From assembly GCF_002286985.1 (NCBI RefSeq), contig NZ_NSKC01000005.1:124001-188000 (forward strand): a stretch of DNA of 64,000 bases, read 5' to 3'. The DNA comes from Halorubrum salipaludis. Its GTDB lineage: Archaea; Halobacteriota; Halobacteria; Halobacteriales; Haloferacaceae. Every line of letters begins with the position of its first letter. Within the stretch, counting starts at the first letter, position 1. Positions 6,037 through 29,891 of this stretch are shown in pieces. The notes beneath the pieces are model-generated. The model saw only the letters and a program-made list of their open reading frames with translations, did not search any database and was not told the origin of the DNA. Both the position numbers and the translations under genes were made by a program.

Positions 6037-6176
6037 GGTCGACCCTGTGGCGAGCCGGGAGTAAACGTTGGGGACGGTGCGGGTACGGGTGCACACTGAG
6101 GAGCGATCGTGGGTACCTATTTGTCGCCGCGGGCGAACGCACAGACACGAGCAGTCAGCCGCCTCTCAGTCCCCCG

Positions 6177-8035: not shown

Positions 8036-8150
8036 GGAGAAAGGGATTCGAACCACGGTCGGACGTGCTCGCTTCGCTGCGCGCGACCTCCCTGCTTCGA
8101 ATCCCTTCTAAGCCGATTCCAGCTGCTCGCGGGTTGCTCGCAGCAGGAAT
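8036..8150 (-). repeat. tRNA-associated cassette behind tRNA-Leu with T-arm copies
   Basis: A degenerate copy of the tRNA-Leu 3' end (AAGGGATTCGAACC at 8041-8054) repeats the true one at 8158-8171, 117 bp away. Between them is an inverted T-arm copy, TTCGAATCCCTT (8096-8107), which makes a perfect 12-bp inverted repeat with 8041-8052. The interior string at 8062-8087 (GACGTGCTCGC..GCGCGCGAC) recurs in the cassette behind tRNA-Arg at 24580-24693. Next to the tRNA is a small hairpin built from CTGCTCGC/GCTCGCAG. It looks like an integration scar or a minimal tRNA-targeting element. Confidence 0.7.
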
Positions 8151-8234
8151 GCGGGGGAAGGGATTCGAACCCTCGAACCTCTACAGGAGCGGATCTTAAG
8201 TCCGCCGCTTTTGGCCAGGCTCAGCCACCCCCGC
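8151..8234 (-). tRNA. tRNA-Leu (anticodon UAA)
   Basis: Read on the minus strand, the gene is 84 nt with a 7-bp acceptor stem (GCGGGGG pairing CCCCCGC), a D-arm with TGGCTGAGCCTGGCC, an anticodon loop CTTAAGA giving UAA, a long variable arm typical of class II tRNAs, and a T-arm GGGTTCGAATCCC. No CCA is encoded. Immediately downstream is the tRNA-derived cassette described separately. Confidence 0.95.
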
Positions 8235-8328
8235 GCGAATTCGGATTCCGGCGGCGGGGTCAAACCCCTTTCGGATGCCGCGGCGGTGCTCTGGATAGCG
8301 GGCTCCCACGCAATCCGCCCGACTCCCC

Positions 8329-8679
8329 CTACCAGTCCACCGACAGGGTCCCGTCCCCGTGCGGATCCGGCGCGATCTCCTCGTCGGTGCGGCGGTCGAC
8401 GACGTGGATGACGCCCTGGTCCTTCTTCGCGGGACACACCTCGGCGGCCCGGACGTTCTCCGCCAGCTCGTCCTCGCCGATGTAGTACGACCGCGGCTTC
8501 GCCATCCCGCTCTGGACGTCCATCACCCAGTTGTCGCCGACCTCGGCGCACTTGCCCGCCCCGAAGCACTTGTTCGCCTCGAAGACGATCTTGTAGGGCT
8601 TCTCCTCGATCGGGGGGCCCTCGCCGCCGATGTCGCTCGCGCGCAGCACCTCGCTCTCGGCGTCCGCCTCGTCGCTCAT
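8329..8679 (-). CDS. Ferredoxin-like protein, probably [3Fe-4S]
   Basis: This is a 116-residue acidic protein with three conserved cysteines: Cys38 and Cys44 in KCFGAGKC, and Cys82 in EVCPAKK. The C-x5-C spacing without a middle cysteine, plus a distal C-P, is the pattern of [3Fe-4S] ferredoxins such as those that serve cytochrome P450 systems. It would carry electrons in the cytoplasm. The first 30 residues form an acidic haloarchaeal extension. The ATG at 8679 is chosen; an in-frame upstream start at 8763 adds a basic stretch unlike the family. No redox partner gene is adjacent. Confidence 0.78.
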   Translation of the reverse strand: MSDEADAESEVLRASDIGGEGPPIEEKPYKIVFEANKCFGAGKCAEVGDNWVMDVQSGMAKPRSYYIGEDELAENVRAAEVCPAKKDQGVIHVVDRRTDEEIAPDPHGDGTLSVDW

Positions 8680-8797
8680 ACCCGTGATCGGCGCCCGCCG
8701 GACTTTCGTCTGTCGGTCGTTTTCACTCGGCGGGCGGTTCCACCCGGTGATCGGTTTCGTCACCGCGCTCCGCGCCGAGCCCGGTCACCGAGCCCGC

Positions 8798-9256
8798 TCA
8801 CCGATGCGCGTCGAGTCCGTCCTCCGGCGCGTCGACGATCTCGTAGCTCCCCTCCGTCCAGCCGTCCTCGACGAAGACGAACACGCGGCCGCCGGCGATC
8901 TCGGGGTCGGCGATCACCTCGTTGCGCTGCCCCTCCCGCGCGACGATGACGCCGGGGAACACCTCGTCGCGCTCGCCGTCCTCGACCATGACGCGGCCGA
9001 CCCCCGAGTCCTCGAGGATCTCGTCGTCGGTGTTGTAGTCGTTGACGTACGTCATCACGCCCTCCGTCTCCGTCGGATCGGTGACGAGCACGTGCGTCTC
9101 CTTGCCGGGGCCGGCGGTCACCGACCCCTCGACGGCGTCCGGGACGCCGCGGTAGAGGGTGGTCCGCCCGTCGAGGTACTCGACGACCACGCCCTCCTCG
9201 CGGAGGTCGATCCCGATCGACGTGGGGGGAACGTCGCTGCGTGAGGGTGCTGACAT
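8798..9256 (-). CDS. Conserved haloarchaeal protein of unknown function
   Basis: The 152-residue soluble acidic protein begins MSAPSRSDVPPTSIGIDLREEGVVVEYLDG and ends EDGWTEGSYEIVDAPEDGLDAHR. Its many short beta-strand-like stretches (GVMTYVNDYNTDD, VMVEDGERDEVFPGVIVAREGQ) suggest a beta-rich fold. I do not recognise a catalytic motif. It resembles DUF-type families confined to haloarchaea. The start at 9256 is preferred over an in-frame upstream ATG at 9316, which adds an Arg/Pro-rich segment. It lies upstream of the ferredoxin on the same strand, about 118 bp away. Confidence 0.7.
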   Translation of the reverse strand: MSAPSRSDVPPTSIGIDLREEGVVVEYLDGRTTLYRGVPDAVEGSVTAGPGKETHVLVTDPTETEGVMTYVNDYNTDDEILEDSGVGRVMVEDGERDEVFPGVIVAREGQRNEVIADPEIAGGRVFVFVEDGWTEGSYEIVDAPEDGLDAHR

Positions 9257-9373
9257 ACGCGCCGTTCGGTGCGCGCGCCTCAAAAGGGGCGCGCTCGGCG
9301 GTCGCGGCTCGGCCATTCAGAAGCGAGAATCGGGGATGCCACATTTAAGGTCCCTCCGCCGGGAGGGTATGTC

Positions 9374-10738
9374 ATGCAACGGACGCGACGGGGCCTGTTG
9401 GGCGTCGGCGCCGCCGCGGTCGCCGGGCTCTCCGGGTGTCTCGGCGTCGAGGGCGTCGAGTACCCCGACGCGGCCTCCGAGGACCCGCCGAACGCGGACG
9501 GCGGGGACGGCGACGGCGGAGACGACGGGGACGGGAACGCGGACGAGCAGGTCGACGGCGACGACGCCGGGCCGGTCGCGAACGAGGCGCTCGCGGCGGC
9601 GACGCGAAACGTCGTCGACGACGCGGTGTGGTTCGCGACCGAGTACCCGTCGGCGGTCGAGACGTATCGCGCGGCGATCCGCGAGGTCGTCGCCGAGATC
9701 GACGACGTTCGGGACGAAGCCGACGCGAACGACGCGGTGACCGTCGAGATGGCCGACCGCCTCGACGAGGCCGGGCGCGCGGCCGCCGACACGGCCGCTG
9801 ACGCGCTGGAACCGCACTTTCACCCCCGCTCTCGGATCGTCTCGCGGACCGAGCGCCACGTCGAGGAGCTTCGGACGTTCGCCCCCCGCGGCGACGTCGA
9901 TCGGTTCCTAGAGGAGCTCTCGCGGATGCACAGCAACTTCGCCGCCGTCGGGACCGCCACCTACGTCGACGAGGCGTTCTCGCGCGAGCCGATCCACAAC
10001 CGCCTCCTGGACCGCCTCCTGTATCCCCTCCCGGACGACCCCGAGGAGCGCCGGCGGGTCCGTGGCGAGGCGTTCGTGGAGCTCGGGCTCGCGAGCCGCG
10101 GCTTCTCGGCGTTCGCACACGAGCCGTACGACGACGAGGAGCACGACCGGGACCGGATCCCGAGGATCTACGGGAACGCGTTCGAGGCCGCCCGCCGCGA
10201 GGAGCTGCGCGCGCGGCTCGGACCGATACCTCGTTCCGAGGACCGGACCGAGGAGCTGTTCGTCGCGTTCGCGGCGCGCCCCGAGGCCGGCAACCGTCCG
10301 AGCGAGACGTTCGAGGGGTGGGCCCACGAACTGGACGGCGTCCCCCTGTACGTCCAGCGGTACCCGGACGCGGCGACCGCGAGTGACCGCCTCGACGAGG
10401 CGATCGCCGCCGTGTCGACCGAGGGCCGCGCGCCGATCGACCCCGACGCCACCGCGGCCGGCTCCGACTTCTCCGGGAACGCGACGGCGGGGGAGGGCGG
10501 AGGGAGCGACGAGACCGACGGGGAGGCGGCGACGGACGAGGGCCCCACCCGCTGGCACCGCCTCTACCACCACGAGGCCGAGGGCGAGCGGTACGGGTAC
10601 GACGAGCACGCCGGCGTCCAGTACGGCTATGTCGTGCAGGCCGGCGAGTTCGTGCTCGCGACCGGGTTCTCGGGCGACGCGTGGGAGGAGCGCACCGGCT
10701 GGCAGGGACGGCTGGCGGACGGGTGGGCGGTGGTCTGA
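9374..10738 (+). CDS. Large Tat lipoprotein, unknown function
   Basis: The 454-residue protein starts MQRTRRGLLGVGAAAVAGLSGC, a Tat signal with a lipobox. An Asp/Gly-rich linker follows (residues 35-65), then a largely helical, acidic body. Near the C-terminus a second low-complexity Gly/Asp/Glu stretch precedes a conserved-looking end, YGYVVQAGEFVLATGFSGD. No known enzyme motif is visible. The stop overlaps the start of the following membrane protein (TGATG), suggesting co-translation and perhaps a shared surface function. An ATG at 9369 is out of frame; the one at 9374 sits directly before the signal peptide. Confidence 0.75.
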   Translation: MQRTRRGLLGVGAAAVAGLSGCLGVEGVEYPDAASEDPPNADGGDGDGGDDGDGNADEQVDGDDAGPVANEALAAATRNVVDDAVWFATEYPSAVETYRAAIREVVAEIDDVRDEADANDAVTVEMADRLDEAGRAAADTAADALEPHFHPRSRIVSRTERHVEELRTFAPRGDVDRFLEELSRMHSNFAAVGTATYVDEAFSREPIHNRLLDRLLYPLPDDPEERRRVRGEAFVELGLASRGFSAFAHEPYDDEEHDRDRIPRIYGNAFEAARREELRARLGPIPRSEDRTEELFVAFAARPEAGNRPSETFEGWAHELDGVPLYVQRYPDAATASDRLDEAIAAVSTEGRAPIDPDATAAGSDFSGNATAGEGGGSDETDGEAATDEGPTRWHRLYHHEAEGERYGYDEHAGVQYGYVVQAGEFVLATGFSGDAWEERTGWQGRLADGWAVV

Positions 10739-11199
10739 TGGACGGGAACGGAGTCGGGCTCACGGCGGCGGTGTTCGCGGTCGTCGGCGCGGGCGTCGGC
10801 CTCGTCGCCGCCGCGACCACCGGGTGGGCGGAGGCCGCGCTCGCCACGGCGGCCACCGGCGAGACCGCGCGGTTCGGCCCGGTGTTCGTCGCGCAGTCGT
10901 ACCTCGCCGTCACAGCCGCCGCGCTGGCCTTCGCGCCGCTGCTCGCCGGCGTGCTCGGCGTCCTCGTCGGGTCGCGGGCGTACGACGCGCGGGAGGCGAC
11001 CGTGACCTGCGGGCTCGGCGGCGGACTCGGCGCGCTGACGTACGGGCTGGTCGTCGTCGTCCTCGTCGTCGCGTCGCAGGGCGAGGCGGCGACGCAGGCC
11101 CACGGGATCGCGGACGCGTTCGGATCGATTCTCACGACCGCGGTCGTCGCCGCCGTCGTCGGCGCGGTGACCGGCGCCCTCGGGTCGGTGACGGGATAA
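10738..11199 (+). CDS. Small multi-pass membrane protein, unknown function
   Basis: This 153-residue protein has about four hydrophobic segments (LTAAVFAVVGAGVGLVAAAT; LAVTAAALAFAPLLAGVLGVLVG; GALTYGLVVVVLVVA; ILTTAVVAAVVGAVTGALG). It contains no recognised motif. Its ATG at 10738 overlaps the stop of the preceding lipoprotein gene by one base, so the two are almost certainly one operon and may act together at the membrane. An upstream in-frame start is possible but lies inside the lipoprotein gene. Confidence 0.7.
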   Translation: MDGNGVGLTAAVFAVVGAGVGLVAAATTGWAEAALATAATGETARFGPVFVAQSYLAVTAAALAFAPLLAGVLGVLVGSRAYDAREATVTCGLGGGLGALTYGLVVVVLVVASQGEAATQAHGIADAFGSILTTAVVAAVVGAVTGALGSVTG

Positions 11200-11302
11200 C
11201 GATGCGGCCGCGCTCGACTCCCGAATGCCGTTGCGACCGAGGGGCGCACGTCGATCGGCTCCGACGACCACCTTTAGGGCGCTCGCCGACGTGGGTGGAC
11301 GC

Positions 11303-11896
11303 ATGACGCCCTCGCTCCGCCGTCGACGCCTGCTGGCCGCCGCGGTCCCCGGCCTGCTCGCCGGCTGTCTCGTGGAGTCGAGCGGGGAGGCCGGCGGCGC
11401 CGACGACGGGACAGGCGACACCGACCGCGAATCGCTCTCCGAGGGAGAGGAGTCCGGGGCTGAGCAGACGGACGGCGAGGAGTCGGACGGGGCGGACGAC
11501 GACGACGAGGCGGACGGCGCCGAAACCCCCGAGGAGGTCGGCCCCGACGGCTCCGGCCTCGTGGTCACGAACGTCGACGTGCTCGACGTGACCGACGGCG
11601 GCTACGAGACGACGGTCGAGGCGCGGCTCACCGTCGAGAACGCCGGGCGGTTCACGTACGGGACCGTCTACTTCCGCGTCGACGCGTACGCGACCCGCCC
11701 GAACTCGATCGAGCGCGAGGCGGTCGGATACGCGTCCCAGCGCGTGGAGTACTCTGCGGACGACCGGTTCGACGGGGGAGACGACCCGCGGCGGTTCACC
11801 GTCGAGATCGACTTCCGGAGCCGGGACACCCGCGCTCGGCCCGACCCGGACTGGTACGAGGTCGACGCCGCGGTCCGGCGCGCCGAGCCGGTCTGA
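11303..11896 (+). CDS. Tat lipoprotein, unknown function
   Basis: This 197-residue protein has the signal MTPSLRRRRLLAAAVPGLLAGC with the lipobox Cys at residue 22. A roughly 55-residue Glu/Asp/Gly-rich linker follows, then a compact beta-like domain (GLVVTNVDVLDVTDGGYETTVEARLTVENAG). That domain reads like the haloarchaeal FxLYD/DUF-type immunoglobulin-like folds, in which extracellular beta strands alternate with charged turns. The start at 11303 fits the signal peptide. It lies between the lipoprotein/membrane pair and the shikimate kinase gene, all on the plus strand. Confidence 0.72.
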   Translation: MTPSLRRRRLLAAAVPGLLAGCLVESSGEAGGADDGTGDTDRESLSEGEESGAEQTDGEESDGADDDDEADGAETPEEVGPDGSGLVVTNVDVLDVTDGGYETTVEARLTVENAGRFTYGTVYFRVDAYATRPNSIEREAVGYASQRVEYSADDRFDGGDDPRRFTVEIDFRSRDTRARPDPDWYEVDAAVRRAEPV

Positions 11897-11999
11897 GGGC
11901 GCGGGCGCTTCGGCGGGCCGCGCCGCTCCCTCCCCCGACCGCCCCGAGAGACTCGCCGTGATCGCTACCTCTTTGTCCGCGCTCGCGAGCCGTGAGTGC

Positions 12000-12893
12000 A
12001 TGGAGGGACGGGCAGCGGCGCTCGGCGCCGGCACCGTGTTGAACGCGCTCGCGACGGGCACCGGCGCGGCCTTCGGCATCGACGTCGAGACGCGCGCGAC
12101 GGTGACGCTCGACCCCGGCGCCGACGACGTGCGCGGGGAGATCGCCGAGGCCCCCGACGCGGACACCGCCCTGATCGAGCGCTGCGTCGCGCTCGCGACC
12201 GAGCGCTGGGGTGACGGCGAGGGCGGCGCCGTCCGGACCGACAGCGACGTGCCCCTCGCGGCCGGCCTCAAGAGCTCCAGCGCGGCCGCCAACGCGACCG
12301 TGCTCGCGACCTGCGACGCGCTCGGGCTCGCGGTCGGGGACGACGCGGACGACCCCGCGGTCGACGTGACCCGCCTCGACGCCTGCCGGCTCGGCGTCCG
12401 CGCGGCCCGCGAGGCGGGCGTCACGGTCACGGGCGCGTTCGACGACGCGACCGCCTCGATGCTCGGCGGCGTCACCGTCACCGACAACGGCGCCGACGAG
12501 CTGCGGTCGCGCGAGGCCGTCGACTGGGACGTGCTCGTGTGGACCCCGCCCGAGCGCGCCTACAGCGCGGACGCGGACGTGGCGCGCTGCGAGGCCGTCG
12601 CGCCGATGGCCGACCTCGTCGCCGACCTCGCGCTGGACGGGCGGTACGCCGAGGCGATGACCGTCAACGGGCTCGCCTTCTCCGCCGCGCTCGGCTTCGA
12701 CGCCGACCCCGCGGTCGAGGCGATGCCCCACGCCACCGGGGTGTCGCTGTCGGGGACCGGGCCGAGCGTCGTCGCCGTCGCGAACCCAGACGACCCCGAG
12801 ACCGACCTCGATCGGGTCGCCGACGCGTGGGGCGACCGCCCCGGCACGCTGCGACGAACGACCACCAGGAACGACGGCGCGGCCGTCGAGTGA
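12000..12893 (+). CDS. aroK: Archaeal shikimate kinase (GHMP family)
   Basis: This 297-residue GHMP kinase phosphorylates shikimate at the 3-hydroxyl using ATP, the fifth step of chorismate synthesis. The ATP-binding motif PLAAGLKSSSAAAN is clear, and ATGVSLSGTGPSV near residue 245 is the third GHMP motif. Archaea use this non-homologous GHMP enzyme instead of bacterial AroK. Chorismate mutase follows 36 bp downstream, which confirms the pathway. The ATG at 12000 is selected because the GRAAALGAGTVLNALATGTGAAFGI start matches the family. Confidence 0.92.
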   Translation: MEGRAAALGAGTVLNALATGTGAAFGIDVETRATVTLDPGADDVRGEIAEAPDADTALIERCVALATERWGDGEGGAVRTDSDVPLAAGLKSSSAAANATVLATCDALGLAVGDDADDPAVDVTRLDACRLGVRAAREAGVTVTGAFDDATASMLGGVTVTDNGADELRSREAVDWDVLVWTPPERAYSADADVARCEAVAPMADLVADLALDGRYAEAMTVNGLAFSAALGFDADPAVEAMPHATGVSLSGTGPSVVAVANPDDPETDLDRVADAWGDRPGTLRRTTTRNDGAAVE

Positions 12894-12929
12894 GCGTCCG
12901 CGAGACACCACACAACAGACACACCCACA

Positions 12930-13223
12930 ATGAGTGACACACCGAACTCCGAGGACCGAAGCCTCGACGAACTGCGACACGAGATCGAGGACATCGACCG
13001 CGAGATCGTGGAACTGATCGCCCGCCGGACCTACGTCGCCGACACGGTCGCGGCCGTGAAAGACGAGCGCGACCTCCCGACGACCGACGAGGGACAGGAG
13101 GAGCGCGTGATGGAACGGGCCGGCGAGAACGCCGAGCGGTTCGACGTCGACGCCAACCTCGTGAAAGCGATCTTCCGGCTGCTGATCGAGTTGAACAAGG
13201 TCGAGCAGCGGGAGAGTCGATAG
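12930..13223 (+). CDS. aroQ: Chorismate mutase, AroQ class
   Basis: This 97-residue all-helical chorismate mutase converts chorismate to prephenate for Phe/Tyr synthesis. The first helix ELRHEIEDIDREIVELIARRT contains the active-site Arg of the AroQ fold. LKN-type residues are replaced by VAAVKDERDLPTTD, with a conserved Lys. The final helix is LVKAIFRLLIELNKVEQ. Its length fits a monofunctional archaeal CM. It is co-directional with aroK and very probably in the same operon. Confidence 0.93.
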   Translation: MSDTPNSEDRSLDELRHEIEDIDREIVELIARRTYVADTVAAVKDERDLPTTDEGQEERVMERAGENAERFDVDANLVKAIFRLLIELNKVEQRESR

Positions 13224-13327
13224 TCGTCTCAGGATAGTTTTAGACGCTTCATCACCTGATTAGTGATTCGAAAACCGGTCTAGGGAGTTCGCCGTGTTCG
13301 GTCGGGGTAGTCGGAAGATGGGCTGAC

Positions 13328-13681
13328 TCAATCTAGCCCGAGACTCAGTTTCAGTGCTTCGTCGACCTCGGCCATGATCGGCTCGCTCAGACTTCCGACA
13401 ACCGAGTGAATCCGCTTTTCGATAGAGACGACGCGAATCTGGTCGAGACGAACTGATGAGTCCTTCTCGAACGGTGAGCCATCCGCTTCGACCAGCACCT
13501 CGAAGGGGTATCCCCGATGCGTGCCTGTCGCGGGAGCAACGATGGTTGTACTGGAGTTTCGATTTCCGATATCGTTTTGCACAATCACCGCAGGCCGGGT
13601 CTTCTTCATCTCACGGCCCTCGGCAGGGTCGAGACGGACGATTACGACATCGCCACGCCGAACCTCGGTATCATCGGTCAT
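13328..13681 (-). CDS. MazF/PemK-type toxin endoribonuclease
   Basis: This is a 117-residue PemK/MazF-fold protein. Diagnostic segments are RRGDVVIVRLDPAEG (the strand 1-2 loop), KTRPAVIVQND, and SVRLDQIRVVSIEKRI near the C-terminus, including the catalytic Arg region. Family members cut single-stranded RNA at short motifs. It follows the antitoxin gene with a 4-bp ATGA overlap (13678-13681), the normal order of such modules. Base composition around the module is lower in GC than its neighbours, which fits acquisition by transfer. Confidence 0.9.
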   Translation of the reverse strand: MTDDTEVRRGDVVIVRLDPAEGREMKKTRPAVIVQNDIGNRNSSTTIVAPATGTHRGYPFEVLVEADGSPFEKDSSVRLDQIRVVSIEKRIHSVVGSLSEPIMAEVDEALKLSLGLD

Positions 13682-13917
13682 TCATCGAGTCCGCTCCACG
13701 CCTCGTCGGATGCTCCCTTCCACTCCTCCGCGAGATGGTCGGCGCTCTCGGAAGCCTCGCGGTACGCGGCGGCTAATTCGTCCTCGTCAGGTCCGGCAGA
13801 CTCGACTTCGACGACGGCGACGGTCACGCGTTTGTTCGCGTATTCTGTTCCGAGATAGATACGACCTCGGTCGTCAGTCTCGTTGGTTCGCAGGTCGCGG
13901 GCATCCACCTTCGTCAT
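13678..13917 (-). CDS. Antitoxin of the MazF-type module, AbrB-like
   Basis: This 79-residue protein starts MTKVDARDLRTNETDDRGRIYLG. The segment DRGRIYLGTEYANKRVTVAVVEVE looks like the swapped-hairpin DNA-binding domain of AbrB/SpoVT antitoxins. The C-terminal half (DELAAAYREASESADHLAEEWKGASDEAWSGLDE) is a helix that would wrap the toxin. An in-frame GTG at 13926 is an alternative start. Three repeats upstream look like its own operator. It should neutralise the toxin and repress the operon. Confidence 0.82.
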   Translation of the reverse strand: MTKVDARDLRTNETDDRGRIYLGTEYANKRVTVAVVEVESAGPDEDELAAAYREASESADHLAEEWKGASDEAWSGLDE

Positions 13918-13918
13918 G

Positions 13919-13967
13919 TTACCCACTACAATCCACTCCTGGATAAGTATTACCCACTATTACCCAC
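13919..13967 (-). promoter_or_regulatory. Phased operator/promoter of the toxin-antitoxin operon
   Basis: Three identical TTACCCAC words (plus strand) start at 13919, 13950 and 13960. A weaker fourth (CAATCCAC) starts at 13929. Their starts lie 10, 21 and 10 bp apart, close to whole helical turns, so all copies would face the same side of the DNA. A TATA-like ATACTTATC (minus strand, about 13942-13950) sits between them, roughly 25 nt before the antitoxin start. This arrangement fits autorepression by antitoxin oligomers. Confidence 0.65.
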
Positions 13968-14148
13968 GGAGATGCTTTTCCGTCAATGTTCCATAGATTT
14001 CGGCGACCTGAGCAAGGGCGGCGGAAGAGTCGGGAGGACGCTACACTCTCGCCCCCGCCCGGCGTTGCTGAGGCGCCTCGCGCCGAGCGCACGCCGTTCG
14101 TCTGACTGACTTTTATCTTCCTGACTGTGCTATTATTTACCACGGACA

Positions 14149-14484
14149 ATGGCCTCCGACCCTCCAGCCGAGAGCGCGACGGAGCGACCGGCGTTGCGGT
14201 GGTCCGACAGCGGCGGCTCCGCGGCGGCAGGCGCCGAGGCCCGCGGCGACGACCGCACCGAGGGCCCCCGCGACGCGGAGCGAGCGGTCGCCGACGACGA
14301 CCGCGACGTCGAACGGCTCGAAGCCGAGCTTGAACGCAAAGAGGAACAGCTCCGGTACGTCACCGAACAGTACGAGGAACTGCTGGCGGAGAAGAACGAG
14401 CGGCTCGCGGACGACGGCGACGACGACCGGGGGCGGACCACGCTCCGATCGCGGCTCGCCGGATACCTCCCCGACCTTCGGTGA
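14149..14484 (+). CDS. Small coiled-coil haloarchaeal protein
   Basis: This 111-residue protein has a disordered, charged N-terminal half. A central heptad-like helix (DRDVERLEAELERKEEQLRYVTEQYEELLAEKNERL) should form a coiled coil, and the C-terminal tail TLRSRLAGYLPDLR is conserved-looking. No enzymatic motif is visible. A TTTTATC box at 14111-14117 precedes it by about 32 nt, compatible with a haloarchaeal promoter. It is 80 bp upstream of the acetamidase gene on the same strand. Confidence 0.7.
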   Translation: MASDPPAESATERPALRWSDSGGSAAAGAEARGDDRTEGPRDAERAVADDDRDVERLEAELERKEEQLRYVTEQYEELLAEKNERLADDGDDDRGRTTLRSRLAGYLPDLR

Positions 14485-14563
14485 CGTATCGATCTCGTTT
14501 CTCTGGCCGCGAACCCGCCGTCGACGCCGGGGTTTTTGTCCGCCCGCCCCGGATCGAGACGCG

Positions 14564-15487
14564 ATGTCACGTGACAGGATCTCACACCGCGACGGCCACG
14601 TCTACGAGTTCGCGCCGGCGATGGACCCCGTCTACGAGGCGGCCGACGGCGAGTCGCTCACGATCGAGACGGTCGACAGCCTGAACGGCGCGATCCAGAC
14701 GGACGACGATCTTCTCGACGCGATCCCGGAGGAGGTGAACGCCGCCACCGGGCCGATCGCGGTCGCGGGGGCCAGCCCGGGCGACGTGCTCGCGGTCGAG
14801 ATCGAGGACGTGCGCGTCACTGAGGACGTCGGGCGCGTCCTCACCGCCCCCGGATTCGGACTCCTGCAGGACGACCCCGACATCGACCACCCGGCGACGC
14901 GGATCACGGAGGTGGACGCCGAGAGCGACGGATCGAGCGGTGGGATCGACTTCGAGGGGATCGACGTGCCGATCGAGCCGGTGATCGGCACGATCGGGGT
15001 CGCGACCGCCGAGGAGACCGTGTCGACGCTCACGCCGGACGACCACGGCGGCAACCTCGACACGACCGACATGACGGCGGGGACGACGGCGTACTTCCCG
15101 GTGTTTCAGGAGGGCGCGATGCTCGCGATGGGCGACTCGAAGGCCGCGATGGCCGACGGCGAGATGTGCGGAACCGGCGCCGAGATCGGCACCGAGATCG
15201 ACGTGACGCTCTCGGTGATCGAAGCCCCCGAAATCCCGCTCCGTCGCCCCCTCGTCGACACCGGCGACGCGGTCAAGACGATCGCGAGCGCGCCGACGAT
15301 GGAGGAGGCCGCCGAGCTCGCGAACCGCGACGCGGTGCGGCTGCTGGCGCACGAACACGGGTTCTCTCGGACCGAGGCGTACCTGTTCTCCAGCCTCGTC
15401 GGCGGCCTCGAGATCAGTCAGGTGGTCGACCCGCAAGTCACCGTGCGCAATGCGGTCCCGAGCGAGCACCTCTCGGTTCCGTTCTGA
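14564..15487 (+). CDS. Acetamidase/formamidase family protein
   Basis: This 307-residue enzyme of the FmdA_AmdA family hydrolyses formamide or short amides to ammonia and an acid. Typical features are GDVLAVEIEDVRV, the HGGNLDTTDMTAGTTAYFPVFQEGAMLAMGDSKAAMADGE stretch (His/Asp metal or active-site region), and the C-terminal SRTEAYLFSSLVGGLEISQVVDP. The length matches archaeal forms. The ATG at 14564 is the first with family similarity. A 21-bp tandem repeat follows the stop codon. Confidence 0.87.
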   Translation: MSRDRISHRDGHVYEFAPAMDPVYEAADGESLTIETVDSLNGAIQTDDDLLDAIPEEVNAATGPIAVAGASPGDVLAVEIEDVRVTEDVGRVLTAPGFGLLQDDPDIDHPATRITEVDAESDGSSGGIDFEGIDVPIEPVIGTIGVATAEETVSTLTPDDHGGNLDTTDMTAGTTAYFPVFQEGAMLAMGDSKAAMADGEMCGTGAEIGTEIDVTLSVIEAPEIPLRRPLVDTGDAVKTIASAPTMEEAAELANRDAVRLLAHEHGFSRTEAYLFSSLVGGLEISQVVDPQVTVRNAVPSEHLSVPF

Positions 15488-15511
15488 CCGGCGGCCGGGA
15501 CCGCCCGGTCA

Positions 15512-15590
15512 CGTCCGCATCGACCGATCTCGCGTCCGAATCGACCGATCTCGCGTCCGAATCGACCGATCTCGCGTCCGCATCGACCGG
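15512..15590. repeat. 21-bp tandem repeat, about 3.8 units
   Basis: Units of 21 bp (CGTCCG[A/C]ATCGACCGATCT plus CG) start at 15512, 15533, 15554 and 15575. The last unit diverges and runs into the stop of the HerA-like gene. Only single-base changes separate the first three copies. The array fills the space between two convergent stop codons. It could aid termination, or it may simply be a young minisatellite. Confidence 0.9.
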
Positions 15591-17573
15591 TCACTCCTCG
15601 GCGGTGCGCCCGCGATCGGCGAGCCGCCGGGCGGCGTCGCTCAGGCCGCCGGCGTCGTCCCCGGTCTCCTCGGTGTCCGCCTCTTCCCGGTCCTCGCTGT
15701 CCTCGTGTTCCGCCTCGTCTCCGTCTGTCGGAGTGTCCGCATCGCCGAGCTCGATCCCCGCCGAGCCGCCGCCGGCGACGTCTTCCGGGTCGGCGTCCGG
15801 GGGATAGCTCCGCTCGGCCGGGGGGACGAAGGCGGTCTCGACCGCGCGGACGACCTCGCGGACGCTCTCCTCGTCGAGCCGGTCGGCGTACGCCTCGCGG
15901 ATCAGGTCGGGGACGGCGTAGGCGTAGTGCCCCCGGCCCGCGTGGCGGATGAGCCCCGCACGCCGGATCGGTCGGTGTCGGCTGTACGCGTGCCCGGAGT
16001 CGCCGTCGCCGCCGGCGTCGATGTGGGCGGCGACGGGGTCGCTGACGCCCTCTCGGCGGTAGTGTCGCAGCATCCCCTGCGAGAGATCCGGGAGCGTCTC
16101 GATCCGGCTCCGGAGCTCCTCGATGACCGCCTCGCGGGTGCCGAGCTCGACCGCGTCGTCGAACCGGAGCGCGCTCTCGGCCACGTCGGCGCGCGTGACC
16201 GGGTCGACGTCGTCGACGTCGGCGGCGGGAGCGTCGCCGGTTCCGGAATCGACGTCCGACGTGTCGGCGCGGGTGTCCTCGGCGGTGCCGGTCGCAGCGT
16301 CGCTCTCCGCGTCGGCGACGTCGAGGTCGGCTGCCGGGTTCCCGTCGGCCGCCGGGTTCCCGCCGTCCGCGGCCTCGCCGTCCGCGGTCCCGCCGTCGCC
16401 CTCGGTCGCGGCGACCGCCTCGTCGTACGACTTGAGGACGGACTGGCCGCCGTCCTCGTCCTCGTCGCTTCCGGGATAGCCGCCGCCGGGCGCGGTCCCC
16501 CCGCCGCCGCGGTACGGCGCCTCGGCCTTCCCGAGGAGCGCCTGCGCGAACTGGTCGGCCATGTTGCTCAGGTCGCGCGCCTCCTCTAACTCGCGTTCGA
16601 GCTCCTGGATGCGCCGGTCCTTCTTGTCGAGCTCCTGGCGGAGGTCGGCGATCTCGGACTCGCGGCGCTCCTTCTCGTCGGAGATCGACTGAAGCTCCCC
16701 CACGAGGTCGCTGGAGACCGACTTCAGCTCGGGGCGCTCGAAGTCGTCGAGCCCGGGGGTCGCCCCCGCGTCGAACGTCTCCTTGCGGTGGAACTGGATC
16801 CGGCGGATCGACTCGTCCCAGTCGGTCATCAGGAAGGCCTCACCGTCGCCCAGATCCTCCACCGCGCTCGCGTACTTCGAGCCGAGGATCCGGCCCACGA
16901 CCTTCGTGTCGTTGTCCCAGGTGAGCCGGTGCCAGCAGAGCCAGTCGCACTGGGTGATGAAGTCCTTCTTCACGTCGGCCGGGCGCTGGCTGATCCCGAC
17001 GATGCCGAGGCCGTGTTTCCGGCCGCGCTTTCCGACCTTGATCAGCATCTTGCCCGTCTCGTCCATCCCGCCGCCCTCGGGGATGTACTCGTGGCACTCC
17101 TCGACGACGAGCAGGAAGGGCTTCTTGAGGCGCTTCTCCTTGGCGAACAGCTGTTTGACGACCTCTAAGAGGAGCTCGTTGGCCGTCTCTTCTTCGAGGT
17201 AGCCCGAGACGTCGAGGATGATCGGGACGTTCTGCTCCAAGGCGAGGGTCGCGATCTTCTCAGCGTGTTCCGGCGAGACGACGATGTCGCACTCGTCGTC
17301 GGCGCCGGCGTGGAGAATCTCGTACTCTTCTTTTAAGCCGTAATACTCTCCGTCCGTGTCGACGATGAGCACCGGAAACCCGTTATCGAGGAGATTCTCG
17401 ATCACGACGCTCGCGGTGTTGCTCTTCCCGGACCCGCTTTTTCCCGTTATGAAGGATCGGCCGGTGAGCACGTCGACGACCGGAAGCTCCACCGGCGAGC
17501 CCGGTTCCGCCGTCGCGTCGCCGCCGATCCCCTCGCTGACGTCCGCGACGTGGATCGTCTCCTCCTCGCTCAT
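15591..17573 (-). CDS. HerA/FtsK-superfamily ATPase (DUF87)
   Basis: This 660-residue P-loop ATPase has Walker A GKSGSGKSNT near residue 42, Walker B LLVVEECHEYIP (with the downstream Glu/His typical of HerA-like proteins), sensor region GIVGISQRP, and a coiled coil at about 300-345. A long Asp/Gly/Ala-rich disordered segment with short repeats (GNPAAD twice) follows, then a globular C-terminal domain (SQGMLRHYRREG..RHRPIRRAGLIRHAG). Relatives act as DNA translocases or conjugation-type motors. No NurA partner is adjacent. The start at 17573 has GTTTATGG 28 nt upstream, suggesting a leaderless transcript. Confidence 0.85.
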   Translation of the reverse strand: MSEEETIHVADVSEGIGGDATAEPGSPVELPVVDVLTGRSFITGKSGSGKSNTASVVIENLLDNGFPVLIVDTDGEYYGLKEEYEILHAGADDECDIVVSPEHAEKIATLALEQNVPIILDVSGYLEEETANELLLEVVKQLFAKEKRLKKPFLLVVEECHEYIPEGGGMDETGKMLIKVGKRGRKHGLGIVGISQRPADVKKDFITQCDWLCWHRLTWDNDTKVVGRILGSKYASAVEDLGDGEAFLMTDWDESIRRIQFHRKETFDAGATPGLDDFERPELKSVSSDLVGELQSISDEKERRESEIADLRQELDKKDRRIQELERELEEARDLSNMADQFAQALLGKAEAPYRGGGGTAPGGGYPGSDEDEDGGQSVLKSYDEAVAATEGDGGTADGEAADGGNPAADGNPAADLDVADAESDAATGTAEDTRADTSDVDSGTGDAPAADVDDVDPVTRADVAESALRFDDAVELGTREAVIEELRSRIETLPDLSQGMLRHYRREGVSDPVAAHIDAGGDGDSGHAYSRHRPIRRAGLIRHAGRGHYAYAVPDLIREAYADRLDEESVREVVRAVETAFVPPAERSYPPDADPEDVAGGGSAGIELGDADTPTDGDEAEHEDSEDREEADTEETGDDAGGLSDAARRLADRGRTAEE

Positions 17574-17755
17574 ACTCGTGAGAGGTGGCGCCCACCCCAT
17601 AAACCATCGGCTCGGTCGACGGTCCGAGTCGGAACGGGTGAAGCGAACCGACGGGTACCTCTCCGAGAAGTAGACGAACCGCTACCGACGACTGGACCAA
17701 GAACACCGACGACGCCCTCCCCAACGCAGTTATCGGCGCGCTCACAGCGGTTCAC

Positions 17756-18000
17756 TTATAAACTGCTGACTGACACGCACCACTCCGAATCCCCAGCAGC
17801 GAGAATCGAAGATTCTCTGGAAGCCGGCGCTATGCGCCGGCGACTGGCCCTTCGAGTTCCGCCCCGCACGGCACCGCACCTCACACCTCCCCAGCCTCGT
17901 CGGTCGCCTCCGCTTCGCTCCGGCGACCGACTCCCTCGTACGGGCGGTTCGCGCCCCGCCGGGCGCTCACCGGCGCACGCCACCGCACGGCCACTTATAA
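17756..18000. repeat. Dispersed intergenic repeat block 2 (TTATAA-flanked)
   Basis: The block is bounded by TTATAA at 17756-17761 and 17995-18000. The core at 17842-17938 matches block 1: CTGGCCCTTCGAGTTCC, then ACCTCCCCAGCCTCGTCGG, hairpin, CTCCCTCG. The hairpin stem here is GTCGGTCGCC/GGCGACCGAC. It differs in sequence from block 1 (GTCGGCCGGC/GCCGGCCGAC), yet pairing is preserved. An extra hairpin GCCGGCGC/GCGCCGGC lies at about 17823-17841. No coding region is evident in 17574-18027 apart from the herA-like promoter. Confidence 0.85.
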
Positions 18001-24579: not shown

Positions 24580-24693
24580 CGGGCACGGTGGGATTCGAAC
24601 CAAAATCAGACGTGCTCGCTCGCTTCGCTCACTGCGCGCGACTGATAGGGTTCGAATCTCTGTACCGCTACTGCTCGCTTTGCTCGCAGATAA
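24580..24693 (-). repeat. tRNA-associated cassette behind tRNA-Arg with 3'-end duplication
   Basis: The string at 24580-24601 (CGGGCACGGTGGGATTCGAAC plus C) repeats the last 22 nt of the tRNA-Arg gene (24694-24715) with one mismatch, 114 bp apart. Between them is an inverted T-arm remnant GGGTTCGAATCTC (24648-24660) and the interior string GACGTGCTCGC..GCGCGCGACT (24609-24642) shared with the tRNA-Leu cassette. A small hairpin, CTGCTCGCTTTGCTCGCAG, sits beside the tRNA. The layout is that of an attL/attR-like scar left by an element that used the tRNA 3' end. Confidence 0.75.
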
Positions 24694-24768
24694 CGGGCAC
24701 AGTGGGATTCGAACCCACGACCGTCGGATTAGAAGTCCGACGCTCTATCCGGGCTGAGCTATGTGCCC
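24694..24768 (-). tRNA. tRNA-Arg (anticodon UCU)
   Basis: Read on the minus strand, it has acceptor GGGCACA pairing TGTGCCC with discriminator G, D-arm TAGCTCAGCCCGGATAGA, anticodon loop CTTCTAA giving UCU, and T-arm GTGGGTTCGAATCCCAC. The gene is 75 nt, short-variable-loop class I. No CCA is encoded. Its 3' end is duplicated 114 bp downstream. Confidence 0.96.
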
Positions 24769-24843: not shown

Positions 24844-27669
24844 TCAGTAGCTGTGCTCGATCACGAGGGTGCCGTCCGGGTCCTCGACGTACACCGTGTC
24901 GCCGCCGTTGTTCCAGATCGCCGACCCGGTCCGACCCCAGTACACCGTGTCGTCGGTGTCGGTACCTGTGCCGGTGTACAGTGTGATCGTCGCGCCGGGA
25001 TCGACGCTGACCGCGCCGAAGGTGTAGCTGTTGTCGACCTCGTCGTACACGACGTATCCGTCGAGGTCGACCGTCTCGGCGCCCTGGTTCACGAACGAGA
25101 CGTACTCGTCTTGGACCGGGTCGCCCGCGGGGGCTTCGACCAGCTCGTCGATCGCGAGGTAGACATCTCCGCCGCCGCCCCCGTCGTCGCCGTCGCCGTA
25201 GGCGTCGAACAGGTCGAAGTCGGCGTCGAAGTTCGTCGTCGTCGGGTTCGCGGGGCCGCCGAGGTTGTTCTGGTCGTCGGTCACCGCGTCGCCGGTCCGC
25301 AGGTCGGACCCGAGGTCGGCGGCGAGCGCGTCGAGGTTGTCGCGCGCGTCGCTCGCGTCGTCGCCGGCCGCGCTCGCGAGGATCACGGCGCCGCCGTCGT
25401 CGCGGAAGTCCTCGATCGCGGCGACCTCGTCGCTCCCGAATCCGTCGTCGGGGGCGGTGACGAGGACCGCCCGGGCCTCCGCGAGGTCCCGGCCGAGGTC
25501 GTCGTCGAAGTCGTTCTTCCCGTCGAACTCGATCGCGAACCCCTCCAGGTAGCGCTGGAAGTAGGCGGCGTCCTCGGCGGAGAGCGCGTAGTCCGCGGCG
25601 AACTGCCCGTGTCCGCCGTCGATGACGACGCTCCCCTCGCGCCCGTCCGCGGAGACGGCGTCGATCAGGTTCGCGAGGAAGACGTAGTTGCCGTACGGAT
25701 CGGTTCCAGGTCCGTCCTCGCCCCCTTCGAAGTTCTCGTCCGGAAGCGGTCCGCCGAGGAACGCGACGTTGCTGTCGGCGTCGACGCCGACGAGCGGGTC
25801 CCCGCCCTCGGACTCGACGGGGACGCGGTCGTCTGCGATGTCGCCGTCGGCGGTCGCGACCGCGGTGGCCGACGGGACGAACAGCTCGTCGACGGGGGCG
25901 TCGCCGACGACGGGGGTTGCGGTGACGTCGCTGTCGGCCCAGAGCCCGCGACCGTTCTCGCGCGCGTCGGCCTCCGCCTCCCAGAACTGATCGTGGAGCC
26001 CGAGCCCGGAGTCGTACACGCGAGCGTAGCCGTCGGCGATGAGGTTCTCGTTGAACAGTCCGTCGTCCGTCTCGATCAGACCGAGCAGTCGACCGAAGTT
26101 CCCGCGAAGCCCCTCGTTCTCGTCGAAGGAGAGCGTCACCGTCTCACCGACCGGAACCGCGTCCTGCGCGTAGTCGGTCGCTTCGTCGCCCCAGAAGCCG
26201 AGCGTGTCCACGTCGTCGATCCCCTCCCACTCCTCGGGACGCTCGTTAGCCGCCTGTGTTTCCGGCGCATCGTGTCCGAGAGTGCGAACGGTTTCGACCT
26301 GTCCGCCTTCGAACTGGACGTCGACGGTGTCGCCGTCGGTGACGCTGACGACCTCGACCTCGTACTCCTCGCTTGGGTCGAGTTCGAGCCCGAGCCCGTC
26401 GCGGTCGGCGAACAGCTCGGGATAGCTCTCCGTGTCGAGATCGGTCGACGTGGGTGCGAAGTTCGCGCCGTCGTTGTTCTCGTCGTCTATCACCTGATTG
26501 TCGTTGAACCGGATCTGCGAGTCGAGACCGTTCGCTAGGGCGTTGAGGTTGTCCGTCTCGTCGTAGTCGCTGTAGTCGGACTGGTCCATCAACACGATCA
26601 GCCCGCCCGCGTCGGCGAACATTGAGAGCGCATCGATCTCGCTCCCGGAGAACGACTCGGAGGGCGACGTGATCACGATCGCCCCGGCCGAACCGGACAG
26701 GTCCGTTCCGAGTTCCGTCGTCGCCTCCAGTGTGTATCCGTTCTCCTCGGCGTAGGATTCGAAGTTATTGTGGCCGTCTCCTTCACCCTGACCCAGGGTG
26801 TAAAACTGGCCGTGCCCCTCATCCCAGAGGACCGTGTCCGACGCGGCGTACTTGTCGAGAACGTTCAGTAGCACTTCCTCGTTGCCGTAGCTTCCGAACT
26901 GAATGTCGTCCTTGGCGAACGGGAAGCCGAACGCGACCACCGGAAGCTCCTGGTCGACCGCCATCAGCGGCAGCGGCGCGTCGTCCGGGTAGCTCGTGTC
27001 GTCGCCGTTGCCGTCCTCGTCGACCGACTCCGCCGTCGGCTCGGCGGCGACCGCGACGGCGTCCTCGGGGAGGTAGCCGTCCGCCGCCAACAGGCTCGCG
27101 GTCGAGTCGAAGACGAGCTCGTCGACGAACTCGGTCGGCCCCTCGCCCGGCTCGTCACCGGGGTCTTCGATCGGTCCGTCGCCGATGCCGAGCGTGATCG
27201 CCACCTCGCCGTCGGTCGGGTCCTCGCCGGAGTCGATCTCGACGCCGACCGCGACTGCCTCGCCGACGCCGAGCTCGACGGTCGGGTCAGGACCGAGCGT
27301 CTCGCCGTCGACGGTCAGTTCGAAGCTCGCGTCGCCGAGGCTCCCGTCCTCGACCTCCGCGAAGAGGCCGAGGTCCTCGGTCCCCTGGTTGCTGACCTGG
27401 AACACCTCGCCGATCTCGTAGACGGTGTTCGAGCCGAAGCCGGTGCCGCCGCCCTCGACCTCGTCGAAGACCAAGGCGAGCTCGCCGTCGTCGTCGACGA
27501 ACGCGTACTCGTCGTCCAGCGGCGTCAAAGAGAGGAGCGAGCTGGCGTCGTCCGCGAGCGCGACGGTCGCGGTCCGCTCCGCCGTCGCCGTGTCGAACGC
27601 CCCCGTGGCGATCGCCCCGCCGCCGGCCGCGGTCGCGCCGATGCCGATGAGGACGCTGCGGCGCTTCAT
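24844..27669 (-). CDS. Secreted multidomain protein: two HGQ domains, thermonuclease, lamin-tail-like domain
   Basis: This 941-residue acidic protein has a Tat-like signal (MKRRSVLIGIGATAAGGGAIATGAF) and a DUF1102-like surface domain (about 30-165). A first HGQ domain spans about 180-415 (DEGHGQ at 283-288, and an Asn/Asp-rich PTSTDLD end). A staphylococcal-nuclease-like domain spans about 436-577, with Arg462, Glu470 and Arg527 matching catalytic Arg/Glu/Arg. A second HGQ domain spans about 593-825 (DGGHGQ at 684-689). A C-terminal lamin-tail-like beta domain follows (about 835-941). It would act outside the cell, probably on nucleic acid. It overlaps the preceding gene by 4 bp (one operon). 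Confidence 0.8.
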   Translation of the reverse strand: MKRRSVLIGIGATAAGGGAIATGAFDTATAERTATVALADDASSLLSLTPLDDEYAFVDDDGELALVFDEVEGGGTGFGSNTVYEIGEVFQVSNQGTEDLGLFAEVEDGSLGDASFELTVDGETLGPDPTVELGVGEAVAVGVEIDSGEDPTDGEVAITLGIGDGPIEDPGDEPGEGPTEFVDELVFDSTASLLAADGYLPEDAVAVAAEPTAESVDEDGNGDDTSYPDDAPLPLMAVDQELPVVAFGFPFAKDDIQFGSYGNEEVLLNVLDKYAASDTVLWDEGHGQFYTLGQGEGDGHNNFESYAEENGYTLEATTELGTDLSGSAGAIVITSPSESFSGSEIDALSMFADAGGLIVLMDQSDYSDYDETDNLNALANGLDSQIRFNDNQVIDDENNDGANFAPTSTDLDTESYPELFADRDGLGLELDPSEEYEVEVVSVTDGDTVDVQFEGGQVETVRTLGHDAPETQAANERPEEWEGIDDVDTLGFWGDEATDYAQDAVPVGETVTLSFDENEGLRGNFGRLLGLIETDDGLFNENLIADGYARVYDSGLGLHDQFWEAEADARENGRGLWADSDVTATPVVGDAPVDELFVPSATAVATADGDIADDRVPVESEGGDPLVGVDADSNVAFLGGPLPDENFEGGEDGPGTDPYGNYVFLANLIDAVSADGREGSVVIDGGHGQFAADYALSAEDAAYFQRYLEGFAIEFDGKNDFDDDLGRDLAEARAVLVTAPDDGFGSDEVAAIEDFRDDGGAVILASAAGDDASDARDNLDALAADLGSDLRTGDAVTDDQNNLGGPANPTTTNFDADFDLFDAYGDGDDGGGGGDVYLAIDELVEAPAGDPVQDEYVSFVNQGAETVDLDGYVVYDEVDNSYTFGAVSVDPGATITLYTGTGTDTDDTVYWGRTGSAIWNNGGDTVYVEDPDGTLVIEHSY

Positions 27670-28958
27670 AGTTCACCCTCCGCGAGGAAGAAGTCGGGAA
27701 ACTCGTCGTCGTTGAAGTTGCTCGTCCGCGGGATGTAGAAATCGCCCCCGTTGTTGTCGTTGTCGACCACCTGATCGAAGTTGAACCGGAACGCGGCGTC
27801 GAGGTCGGCGAGCACCGCGTTCAGCGCGTCGTTCGAGGTGCCGTCGAACGACGCGGTCCCGTGGAGGAACACCGCACCGCCGTCGTCGACGAAGTCGGCG
27901 AGTTCGGACCGCTCCGTGTCGGAGAATCCGCCCACGCTCGCCACGTCGCCGTCGGATGTCGCGATCATCACCGCGTCCGCACCGTCGAGCGAGCCGACGA
28001 AGTCGCTGTCGATCGACTCGACGTCGAACCCCCGACCCTCTGCTACCGATTGGAGCTGCGAGAAGGCGTCGAGCGTCAGTTCCTGTCCGTGGGTCTCGTC
28101 GTACAGCACGGTTCCGGTCCCGTCGAGGACCGTCTGCCAGGCGTTCGCGATGAGCGTCCGATTGTCGTCTTCACTGCTCGCGTCCGGGCCGAGATCTGCT
28201 CCGAACCCGACTACGTTCCCGTCCGCCGCTGCCAACGGGATTCCGGTGTCGTCGGGATACGAGACGAACCCGTCGTCGTCCTCCGAGTTTTCGTTGTCGG
28301 CCGTCGCTTCCGCCCACACCGCGACGACGGAGTCGTCGTCGAGCACCTCGCCGTTCGCGTCGACGAGGCTCGACGTGGAGAAGAACTCCGTCTCGTCGAT
28401 CGTCTCGGGCGGCTCCGGTTCCGGCTCGTCCGGCTCGTCGCCGCCCTCCTCGAAGGCCGCCTCGATGGTGATCTCGATGTCGAGCTCGTTCGTCACGTCG
28501 ACGTCGCCCGTCTCGACGTGGGTGCCGACCGACTGCTCCTCGCCGGTCTCCAAGACGATCGCGTTGTCCTCGTCGTCGAGGGTGCCGTCTCGGTCGCCGG
28601 TCGGGTACAGCCGGAACTCGCCGTCGAACGCGTCGGTGTCGCTGCTCGCGGTGATAGAGACCGTCTCGGTCCCCTGGTTCGCGATCGCGAACACCTCGTC
28701 GAAGAAGAACTGCGAGTTGCGGCCGATCCCGTCGCCGTCGCCGGAGACGTCGCCGAACGCGAGCGCGAGCTCGCCGTCGCCGTCCGTCGTCGCGTACGCG
28801 CTCTTCGAGACCAGCCCCAGATAGGCGTCCTCGTCGTCCGCGAAGTTCACCGTCGCGGTCCGCTCCGCGCTCGCCGTGTCGAACGCGCCCGTTCCGATGA
28901 GTGCTATACCGCCGATACCGCTGGCCGCCGCTCCCGTGATGAGTGTTCGTCGTCGCAT
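27666..28958 (-). CDS. Secreted HGQ-domain protein, partner of the nuclease gene
   Basis: This 430-residue protein has a Tat-like signal MRRRTLITGAAASGIGGIALIGTGAF and a DUF1102-like domain (about 30-170). A Glu/Pro-rich linker (about 172-188) follows, then one HGQ domain (about 190-425) with DETHGQ at 287-292, IATSDGD, LADFVDDGGAVFL and a final IPRTSNFND. Parts resemble a DUF4350/class-I-amidotransferase-like Rossmann fold. No nuclease domain is present. It is upstream of, and overlapped by, the thermonuclease gene (ATGA at 27666-27669), so the pair is co-expressed and probably co-located at the surface. Function unknown. Confidence 0.78.
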   Translation of the reverse strand: MRRRTLITGAAASGIGGIALIGTGAFDTASAERTATVNFADDEDAYLGLVSKSAYATTDGDGELALAFGDVSGDGDGIGRNSQFFFDEVFAIANQGTETVSITASSDTDAFDGEFRLYPTGDRDGTLDDEDNAIVLETGEEQSVGTHVETGDVDVTNELDIEITIEAAFEEGGDEPDEPEPEPPETIDETEFFSTSSLVDANGEVLDDDSVVAVWAEATADNENSEDDDGFVSYPDDTGIPLAAADGNVVGFGADLGPDASSEDDNRTLIANAWQTVLDGTGTVLYDETHGQELTLDAFSQLQSVAEGRGFDVESIDSDFVGSLDGADAVMIATSDGDVASVGGFSDTERSELADFVDDGGAVFLHGTASFDGTSNDALNAVLADLDAAFRFNFDQVVDNDNNGGDFYIPRTSNFNDDEFPDFFLAEGEL

Positions 28959-29231: not shown

Positions 29232-29891
29232 ATGAACGTCATCGGAACCGTCGGCCTCCCCGGCAGCGGGAAGGGGGAGGCGGCGAACGTGGCCGAGGAG
29301 GCGGGGATCCCGGTCGTCGTCATGGGCGACGTGATCCGGGCGGAGTGCCGCCGACGCGGGCTCGACCCGGCCGAACACCACGGTCGGATCGCCGGCGCGC
29401 TCCGCGAGGAGGAGGGCGACGACGCGATCGCCGCCCGGACGCTCCCGCTGATTCGCGAGGCGGCGGCCGAGAGCGACCGCGAGGCCGTCCTCGTCGACGG
29501 GCTCCGCTCGACCGTCGAACTGGAGCGCTTCCGCGACGCCTTCGGCGACGACTTCACGCTGGTGGCCGTCCGCGCGCCCTTCGAGCTCCGCGCCGAGCGG
29601 CTCGACGAGCGCGGCCGTGACGACTCCGACTCCGACCTGGAGGCCCTCCGCGAGCGCGACGCCCGCGAGCTCGAGCTCGGCCTCGGCGAGACCCTCGACC
29701 GGGCCGACGTCGAGATCGACAACACCGGGACGCTGGCGGCGTTCCGGCGGCGGGTCCGAGAGGTACTCGGCGTCGCGGACGGCGAGGCGAGCGAGGAGAG
29801 CGCCGACGGCGGCGCGGCGGGCGACGCCGATCCGGATCCGGAGTCCGACACCGACCCCGCGGCCCCGAACGCCGGAGGTGACGGCTCGTGA
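29232..29891 (+). CDS. UPF0200-type P-loop nucleotide kinase-like protein
   Basis: This 219-residue protein has a P-loop GLPGSGKGE at the N-terminus and a mononucleotide-kinase-like body (VVVMGDVIRAECRRRGL, VLVDGLRS, VAVRAPFELRAERLDERGR). It matches the archaeal UPF0200 family (dephospho-CoA-kinase-like fold). The substrate is not established. The C-terminal tail is Asp/Gly/Glu-rich and probably disordered. Its stop overlaps the GTG of the UPF0201 gene (4 bp), so the two form an operon; this pairing is known in archaea. The start at 29232 is set by the P-loop. Confidence 0.85.
   Translation: MNVIGTVGLPGSGKGEAANVAEEAGIPVVVMGDVIRAECRRRGLDPAEHHGRIAGALREEEGDDAIAARTLPLIREAAAESDREAVLVDGLRSTVELERFRDAFGDDFTLVAVRAPFELRAERLDERGRDDSDSDLEALRERDARELELGLGETLDRADVEIDNTGTLAAFRRRVREVLGVADGEASEESADGGAAGDADPDPESDTDPAAPNAGGDGS

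Follow-up and report, generated by a model that had tools for sequence, protein, structure and literature searches.

The operon described here lies in a 64-kb window (the whole stretch of DNA that was analysed) on contig NZ_NSKC01000005.1 of Halorubrum salipaludis, whose 3.5-Mb genome is labelled G000 below. It consists of two genes on the reverse strand, as are all of the operon features given below. Gene 1 (P0002, 430 residues; positions 27666–28958) encodes a twin-arginine translocation (Tat) signal peptide, a domain resembling the pilins of Tat-fimbriae (tafi-pilin) and a single N-type copy of a domain with a D-[EG]-[GT]-H-G-Q motif (HGQ domain). Gene 2 (P0001, 941 residues; 24844–27669) encodes a Tat signal peptide and a tafi-pilin domain, followed by an N-type HGQ domain, a staphylococcal-nuclease-like (SNase) domain, a C-type HGQ domain and a lamin-tail domain (LTD). 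The stop codon of gene 1 and the start codon of gene 2 share the 4 bp ATGA (27666–27669). The operon has its closest named relatives in Halorubrum species, and the arrangement is retained in related species with protein identities of 64–87%, which argues that it is not due to chance. An earlier sequence-only reading had proposed three HGQ domains with Asn/Asp-rich ends in two Tat-exported proteins, an SNase-like domain between two of them, a lamin-tail-like domain and the gene overlap. All of these are borne out below; the tafi-pilin domains at both N-termini, the most informative part, were overlooked.

Both proteins begin with a pair of arginines and a hydrophobic stretch, and are predicted to be exported by the Tat pathway. 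Their signal peptides (gene 1 residues 1–31, MRRRTLITG...GTGAFDTASA, 28866–28958; gene 2 residues 1–30, 27580–27669) align with those of pilins. On inspection, neither sequence has a C-terminal transmembrane segment or any cysteine, and hence neither has a lipobox. As both proteins lack a membrane anchor and a lipobox cysteine, the pilin domain is the sole visible tether. The predicted models have mean pLDDT (predicted local distance difference test) values of 81 for gene 1 and 82.5 for gene 2.

Residues ~31–165 of both proteins are identified by sequence comparison as a fimbrial subunit domain of the tafi-pilin (TafE/DUF1102-like) type. For the N-terminal 170 residues of gene 2 (domain residues 31–164, 27178–27579), the only sequence match in the PDB is chain C of 9p0a, the Tafi pilus of Natrinema sp. 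J7-2 (phmmer E-value 3.1e-11), and the TafE model matches with an E-value of 2e-9. The same chain is also the sole PDB sequence match for gene 1 (residues 32–170, 28449–28865; phmmer 5e-4), which in addition matches TafE (5.8e-8) and DUF1102 (3.4e-7), and a Foldseek search with the gene 1 model places 7ueg (Pyrobaculum bundling pili) and 9p0a at the top ranks. The segment that follows the signal peptide, AERTATVALADD, corresponds to ADRTVSVAVAGD of the pilin. A Tat signal, a GTGAF-like region and then a strand segment are common to both operon proteins and to the pilin-like proteins of the same genome, where a cluster at another location contains nine proteins with the post-signal pattern. This cluster of tafi-pilin-like Tat proteins is on contig C26 (L036, G000:C26:70000-89000; 6967–17781); one of the nine carries a C-terminal VWA domain, and none of them reaches the TafE or TafA cut-offs.

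The SNase domain (gene 2 residues 431–584; 25918–26379) is recognised by PF00565 with an E-value of 3.2e-11 (44 bits, cut-off 21), and the corresponding region of the model matches staphylococcal nuclease in Foldseek with an E-value of 1.5e-9 and a TMt of 0.85. Asp447, Arg462, Asp467, Glu470 and Arg527, the equivalents of D21, R35, D40, E43 and R87 of staphylococcal nuclease, are invariant in an alignment of 30 sequences; Arg462, Glu470 and Arg527 had been picked out by the sequence-only reading. The equivalent of T41 is Ala468. The C-terminal LTD (residues 838–941; 24847–25158) matches PF00932 with an E-value of 2.3e-17 (63.7 bits, cut-off 34.3). LTDs occur in DNases of halophiles, where they have been proposed to provide extra DNA binding at high salt (PMC4486849).

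The HGQ domain is ~240 residues long and extends well upstream of its motif. The three copies comprise residues 187–430 of gene 1 (27669–28400; DETHGQ at 287–292, 28083–28100), residues 182–426 of gene 2 (26392–27126; DEGHGQ at 283–288) and residues 590–826 of gene 2 (25192–25902; DGGHGQ at 684–689), and they end in DDENN, DDQNN or DNDNN. Two stretches of gene 2 match Pfam DUF4350 (PF14258; E-value 7.5e-12, 46.3 bits, gathering cut-off 30.4). The gene 1 copy has no Pfam match, but scores 2e-73 against a hidden Markov model (HMM) that we built for the family and that, with the tree described below, also supports both gene 2 copies. Together with weak matches to ABC_transp_aux and IFT52-GIFT, these similarities assign the HGQ domain to a haloarchaeal branch of the DUF4350/GldG/IFT52-GIFT flavodoxin-like superfamily, which is known but uncharacterised. 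DUF4350 (arCOG01314) proteins have been described as anchored in the membrane, with an extracellular domain that is flavodoxin-like and related to both GldG and the β-galactosidase trimerisation domain (Makarova et al., PMC5898192). Canonical DUF4350 proteins are membrane anchored and have MoxR ATPase and VWA neighbours, whereas the operon proteins lack a C-terminal transmembrane segment and no such neighbours were noted in the gene calls.

The Asp, His and Gln of the motif are near-invariant across 86 HGQ copies, as are one Glu (100%), a Gly-Gly pair and the Asp and Asn of the DDENN end; the domain may have a pocket at the edge of its sheet. Variants do occur: stand-alone versions have D-x-S/T-H-x-Q, and Arg replaces the His in at least one C-type copy. 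In the HGQ tree, the N-type copies, which precede the SNase domain and include that of gene 1, are separate from the C-type copies that follow it, except for a few extra N-type-like copies downstream of the SNase domain in multi-domain proteins. The idea that gene 1 arose by simple, recent copying of the front half of gene 2 is unsupported, as the HGQ domains fall into different tree groups. Nor does HGQ appear to be a general archaeal domain: distant matches in Halobacteriota (E-values of ~1e-11 to 1e-17) are, as far as checked, of the generic GIFT/GldG type, and the D-x-x-H-x-Q motif was absent from the three loci of such relatives that were read. Stand-alone, Tat-secreted HGQ proteins (~260 residues, D-x-S/T-H-x-Q) were seen at ~7.1–8.1 kb in L311–L314, where the neighbourhood, in another haloarchaeal family, is conserved and includes no adjoining nuclease gene.

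Of 292 Halobacteria genomes, 76 have large matches containing both SNase and HGQ domains (E-value < 1e-120), as counted among the matches listed. In haloarchaea, the core HGQ-SNase-HGQ(-LTD) is thus widespread, and the fusion to a tafi-pilin domain is a minority form, present in 19 of the 98 distinct family proteins tabulated. A Tat-like pair of arginines is found near the start of 84 of these 98 proteins and a possible C-terminal transmembrane segment in two. The architectures include HGQ-SNase-HGQ with zero to four LTDs, versions with a pilin domain and versions with several HGQ domains; their near-constant unit is the SNase domain followed directly by a C-type HGQ domain. In ~10 proteins of other haloarchaea (L112, L115, L118, L122, L136 and others), an HGQ domain is apparently inserted within the SNase domain, halving it. 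Members are annotated in databases as lamin tail domain-containing, thermonuclease family or PKD domain-containing proteins. A viral origin of the family was considered and rejected, as matches in viral contigs are almost wholly confined to the SNase region and none spans HGQ-SNase-HGQ. The domain combination had been called unfamiliar in the sequence-only reading. That description does not hold for the core, whose order is common and whose domains are all known or belong to known superfamilies; the unusual part is the fusion of pilin and nuclease and the exchange of domains described below, neither of which that reading had seen. No report of either was found in the open-access literature searched.

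The two-gene operon was found only in Halorubrum, every time between a tRNA-Arg(TCT) gene (24694–24768, reverse strand, in the window) and a gene for an AAA-kinase-like protein (29232–29891, forward strand). All 39 Halorubrum-genus genomes searched have the AAA-kinase gene, and the surrounding site was surveyed in 33 of them. It is empty in 24, with the tRNA gene ~100 bp from the AAA-kinase gene and nothing between. Five genomes (G000, G141, G126, G013 and G138) have the uninterrupted operon. In G140 (L041), gene 2 is split near residue 673, and G100 (L064) retains a decayed operon with stop codons and missing stretches; these decaying copies suggest that the operon is dispensable. G346 has no separate gene 1; a single gene there joins the gene 1 pilin domain to the remainder of gene 2. 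The site in G316 (L216, G316:C15:22000-38000; 5323–12098) holds a different two-gene cassette, also with a 4-bp overlap, that encodes a multi-HGQ nuclease of 1294 residues and a 964-residue protein with CarboxypepD_reg/SpaA-like Ig domains. A 22-base near-copy of the 3′ end of the tRNA-Arg gene (24580–24601 compared with 24694–24715 of the window; 21 of 22 bases by eye) lies ~115 bp from the tRNA gene and resembles an old integration remnant.

The modules of the operon differ markedly in their conservation. The pilin domains of the window are 86–93% identical to those of relatives (67–73% in G140). The HGQ domain of gene 1 is either 74–85% or 43–44% identical, the second HGQ domain of gene 2 either 81–88% or 53%, and the LTD 48–85%. 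The SNase domain of the window is 59–64% identical to those of most relatives, which are 81–92% identical among themselves. Nucleotide identity falls sharply at the domain junctions. The best breakpoints are at residue 189 of gene 1 and residues 178, 582 and 829 of gene 2, all of them domain junctions, and the breakpoint statistic at these positions was matched by none of 5000 permutations. Between the window and G141, the left border of the SNase domain is weaker (5 of 5000 permutations), and gene 1 shows only a mild gradient (98 of 5000). G346 and G013 have similar LTDs (82–84%) and dissimilar second HGQ domains (~50%), whereas for G346 and G141 the pattern is reversed. These reciprocal patterns show that differences in rate, such as slower evolution of the pilin domain, cannot alone explain the steps in identity. 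Thus, HGQ, SNase and LTD modules have been swapped between species at domain junctions, with the pilin domain as the most conserved module.

Extracellular DNA processing or scavenging, one of the roles that had been suggested from the sequence, is best supported for the operon, because the predicted active site of the SNase domain is intact, the proteins carry Tat signals and there is a precedent in Hvo_1477 of Haloferax volcanii. Deletion of Hvo_1477 impairs growth on DNA and can be complemented, with DNA serving mainly as a phosphorus source (PMC3929857), and this protein carries a lamin-tail domain (PMC5118699). Hvo_1477 is likewise a secreted haloarchaeal SNase with an LTD, but it is a putative lipoprotein of 327 residues without HGQ or pilin domains, whereas the operon proteins have no lipobox cysteine. 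How the putative nuclease of the operon would be held at the cell is less certain. Tat-fimbriae have only recently been described. They exist in haloarchaea (Galeva et al. 2025, as cited in PMC12687288). We tentatively favour, with slightly less than even confidence, the simplest account: an extracellular nuclease that is built from exchangeable modules and is held at the surface by a pilin domain anchoring it to Tat-fimbriae. Both proteins would be exported by the Tat pathway to the surface, where each pilin domain would most likely enter Tat-fimbriae, or pair with the other protein, by donor-strand complementation, so that the nuclease would be retained rather than diffuse off. It would cut extracellular DNA, most likely as a source of phosphorus and nucleotides or in the remodelling of biofilm DNA, and the HGQ and LTD modules would probably bind a substrate or a partner surface, such as DNA, nucleotides or glycans. 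A fuller version, which we regard as possible rather than probable, is a nuclease-bearing Tat-fimbria: a donor-strand pilus would display the enzyme, and HGQ, LTD and SNase recognition modules would recombine between species at domain junctions around a constant pilin anchor, giving a device of variable specificity for capturing and digesting DNA at the surface.

Within this fimbrial reading, tethering is the least certain step, and several observations weigh against the reading. The Foldseek TM-score of the gene 1 model to 9p0a is modest (TMt 0.43), both proteins (37.4 and 32.7 bits) miss the NCBIfam TafE cut-off of 155 bits, and the operon is located away from the pilin cluster of its own genome. 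The operon is also missing from most Halorubrum species. In addition, 79 of the 98 family proteins have no pilin domain and are apparently free Tat-secreted proteins, which implies that fimbrial tethering is not required for the core function. Pilin-like genes occur in all 39 genus genomes searched; therefore, their co-occurrence with the operon says nothing on tethering.

The abundance of Tat-secreted homologues without a pilin domain is also what would be expected if the operon encoded a secreted nuclease complex that is soluble. In that case, the role of the pilin-like domains would be limited to pairing the two proteins as a strand-exchange heterodimer, or they would be passenger β-sandwiches, and the enzyme would diffuse freely and scavenge DNA. 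The overlapping stop and start codons, which suggest that the two proteins, with their homologous pilin domains, are made in matched amounts, fit such a pair. Even so, we consider it somewhat unlikely, since in most lineages the pilin domain is the best-conserved module amid others that are exchanged, as expected of an interface with a constant structure, and since the single fused gene of G346 indicates that the pair is not obligatory. A structural adhesin or matrix protein, in which HGQ and LTD would bind glycans or DNA to hold a biofilm and nuclease activity would be secondary, could account for gene 1, which has no nuclease, and for the stand-alone HGQ proteins; DUF4350 relatives in the flavodoxin-like superfamily are also thought to form complexes (PMC5898192). 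It is improbable, as the invariance of all SNase catalytic residues in the 30 aligned homologues would be unexpected were activity dispensable.

Module exchange around a conserved anchor, presence or absence at one site and the decaying copies in G100 and G140 might instead reflect an arms race, with a surface nuclease that destroys viral or foreign DNA at the fimbriae. Virus DNA, however, is normally ejected directly into the cell, and the gene calls show no neighbourhood of defence genes, PADLOC not having been searched; we consider this barrier about as improbable as the adhesin. The interspecies competition raised by the sequence-only reading would take the form of a fimbria-displayed weapon resembling polymorphic toxins and is highly improbable: a conserved N-terminal display domain precedes variable modules as in such toxins, but the neighbours (tRNA-Arg, an unrelated small Tat/lipoprotein-like gene and the AAA kinase) include no adjoining cytoplasmic immunity gene, no route of delivery into a target cell is visible, the nuclease is in mid-protein rather than at an exchangeable C-terminal tip, and no toxin model was matched in Pfam and NCBIfam searches of both proteins (PADLOC was not searched).

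Under the favoured fimbrial reading, the pilin-nuclease fusion would give Tat-fimbriae a concrete and testable role, the retention of enzymes and binding modules at the cell surface, and would tie them to the use of extracellular DNA in hypersaline waters. Exchange at the junctions with a constant anchor suggests that the HGQ and LTD parts are under selection for variety, and their ligand is a worthwhile target for this reason. The operon proteins resemble the 9p0a pilin (TafA/TafE family) in their Tat signal, post-signal strand segment and β-sandwich domain, but differ from it in the HGQ, SNase and LTD modules that follow. Staphylococcal nuclease shares the SNase fold and catalytic residues but lacks the HGQ, LTD and pilin domains. 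YokF and YncB of B. subtilis are of the SNase type and are likewise without these modules. AbpA of the Pyrobaculum bundling pili (7ueg), which ranks first among the fold matches to the gene 1 model, is a crenarchaeal filament protein without a nuclease.

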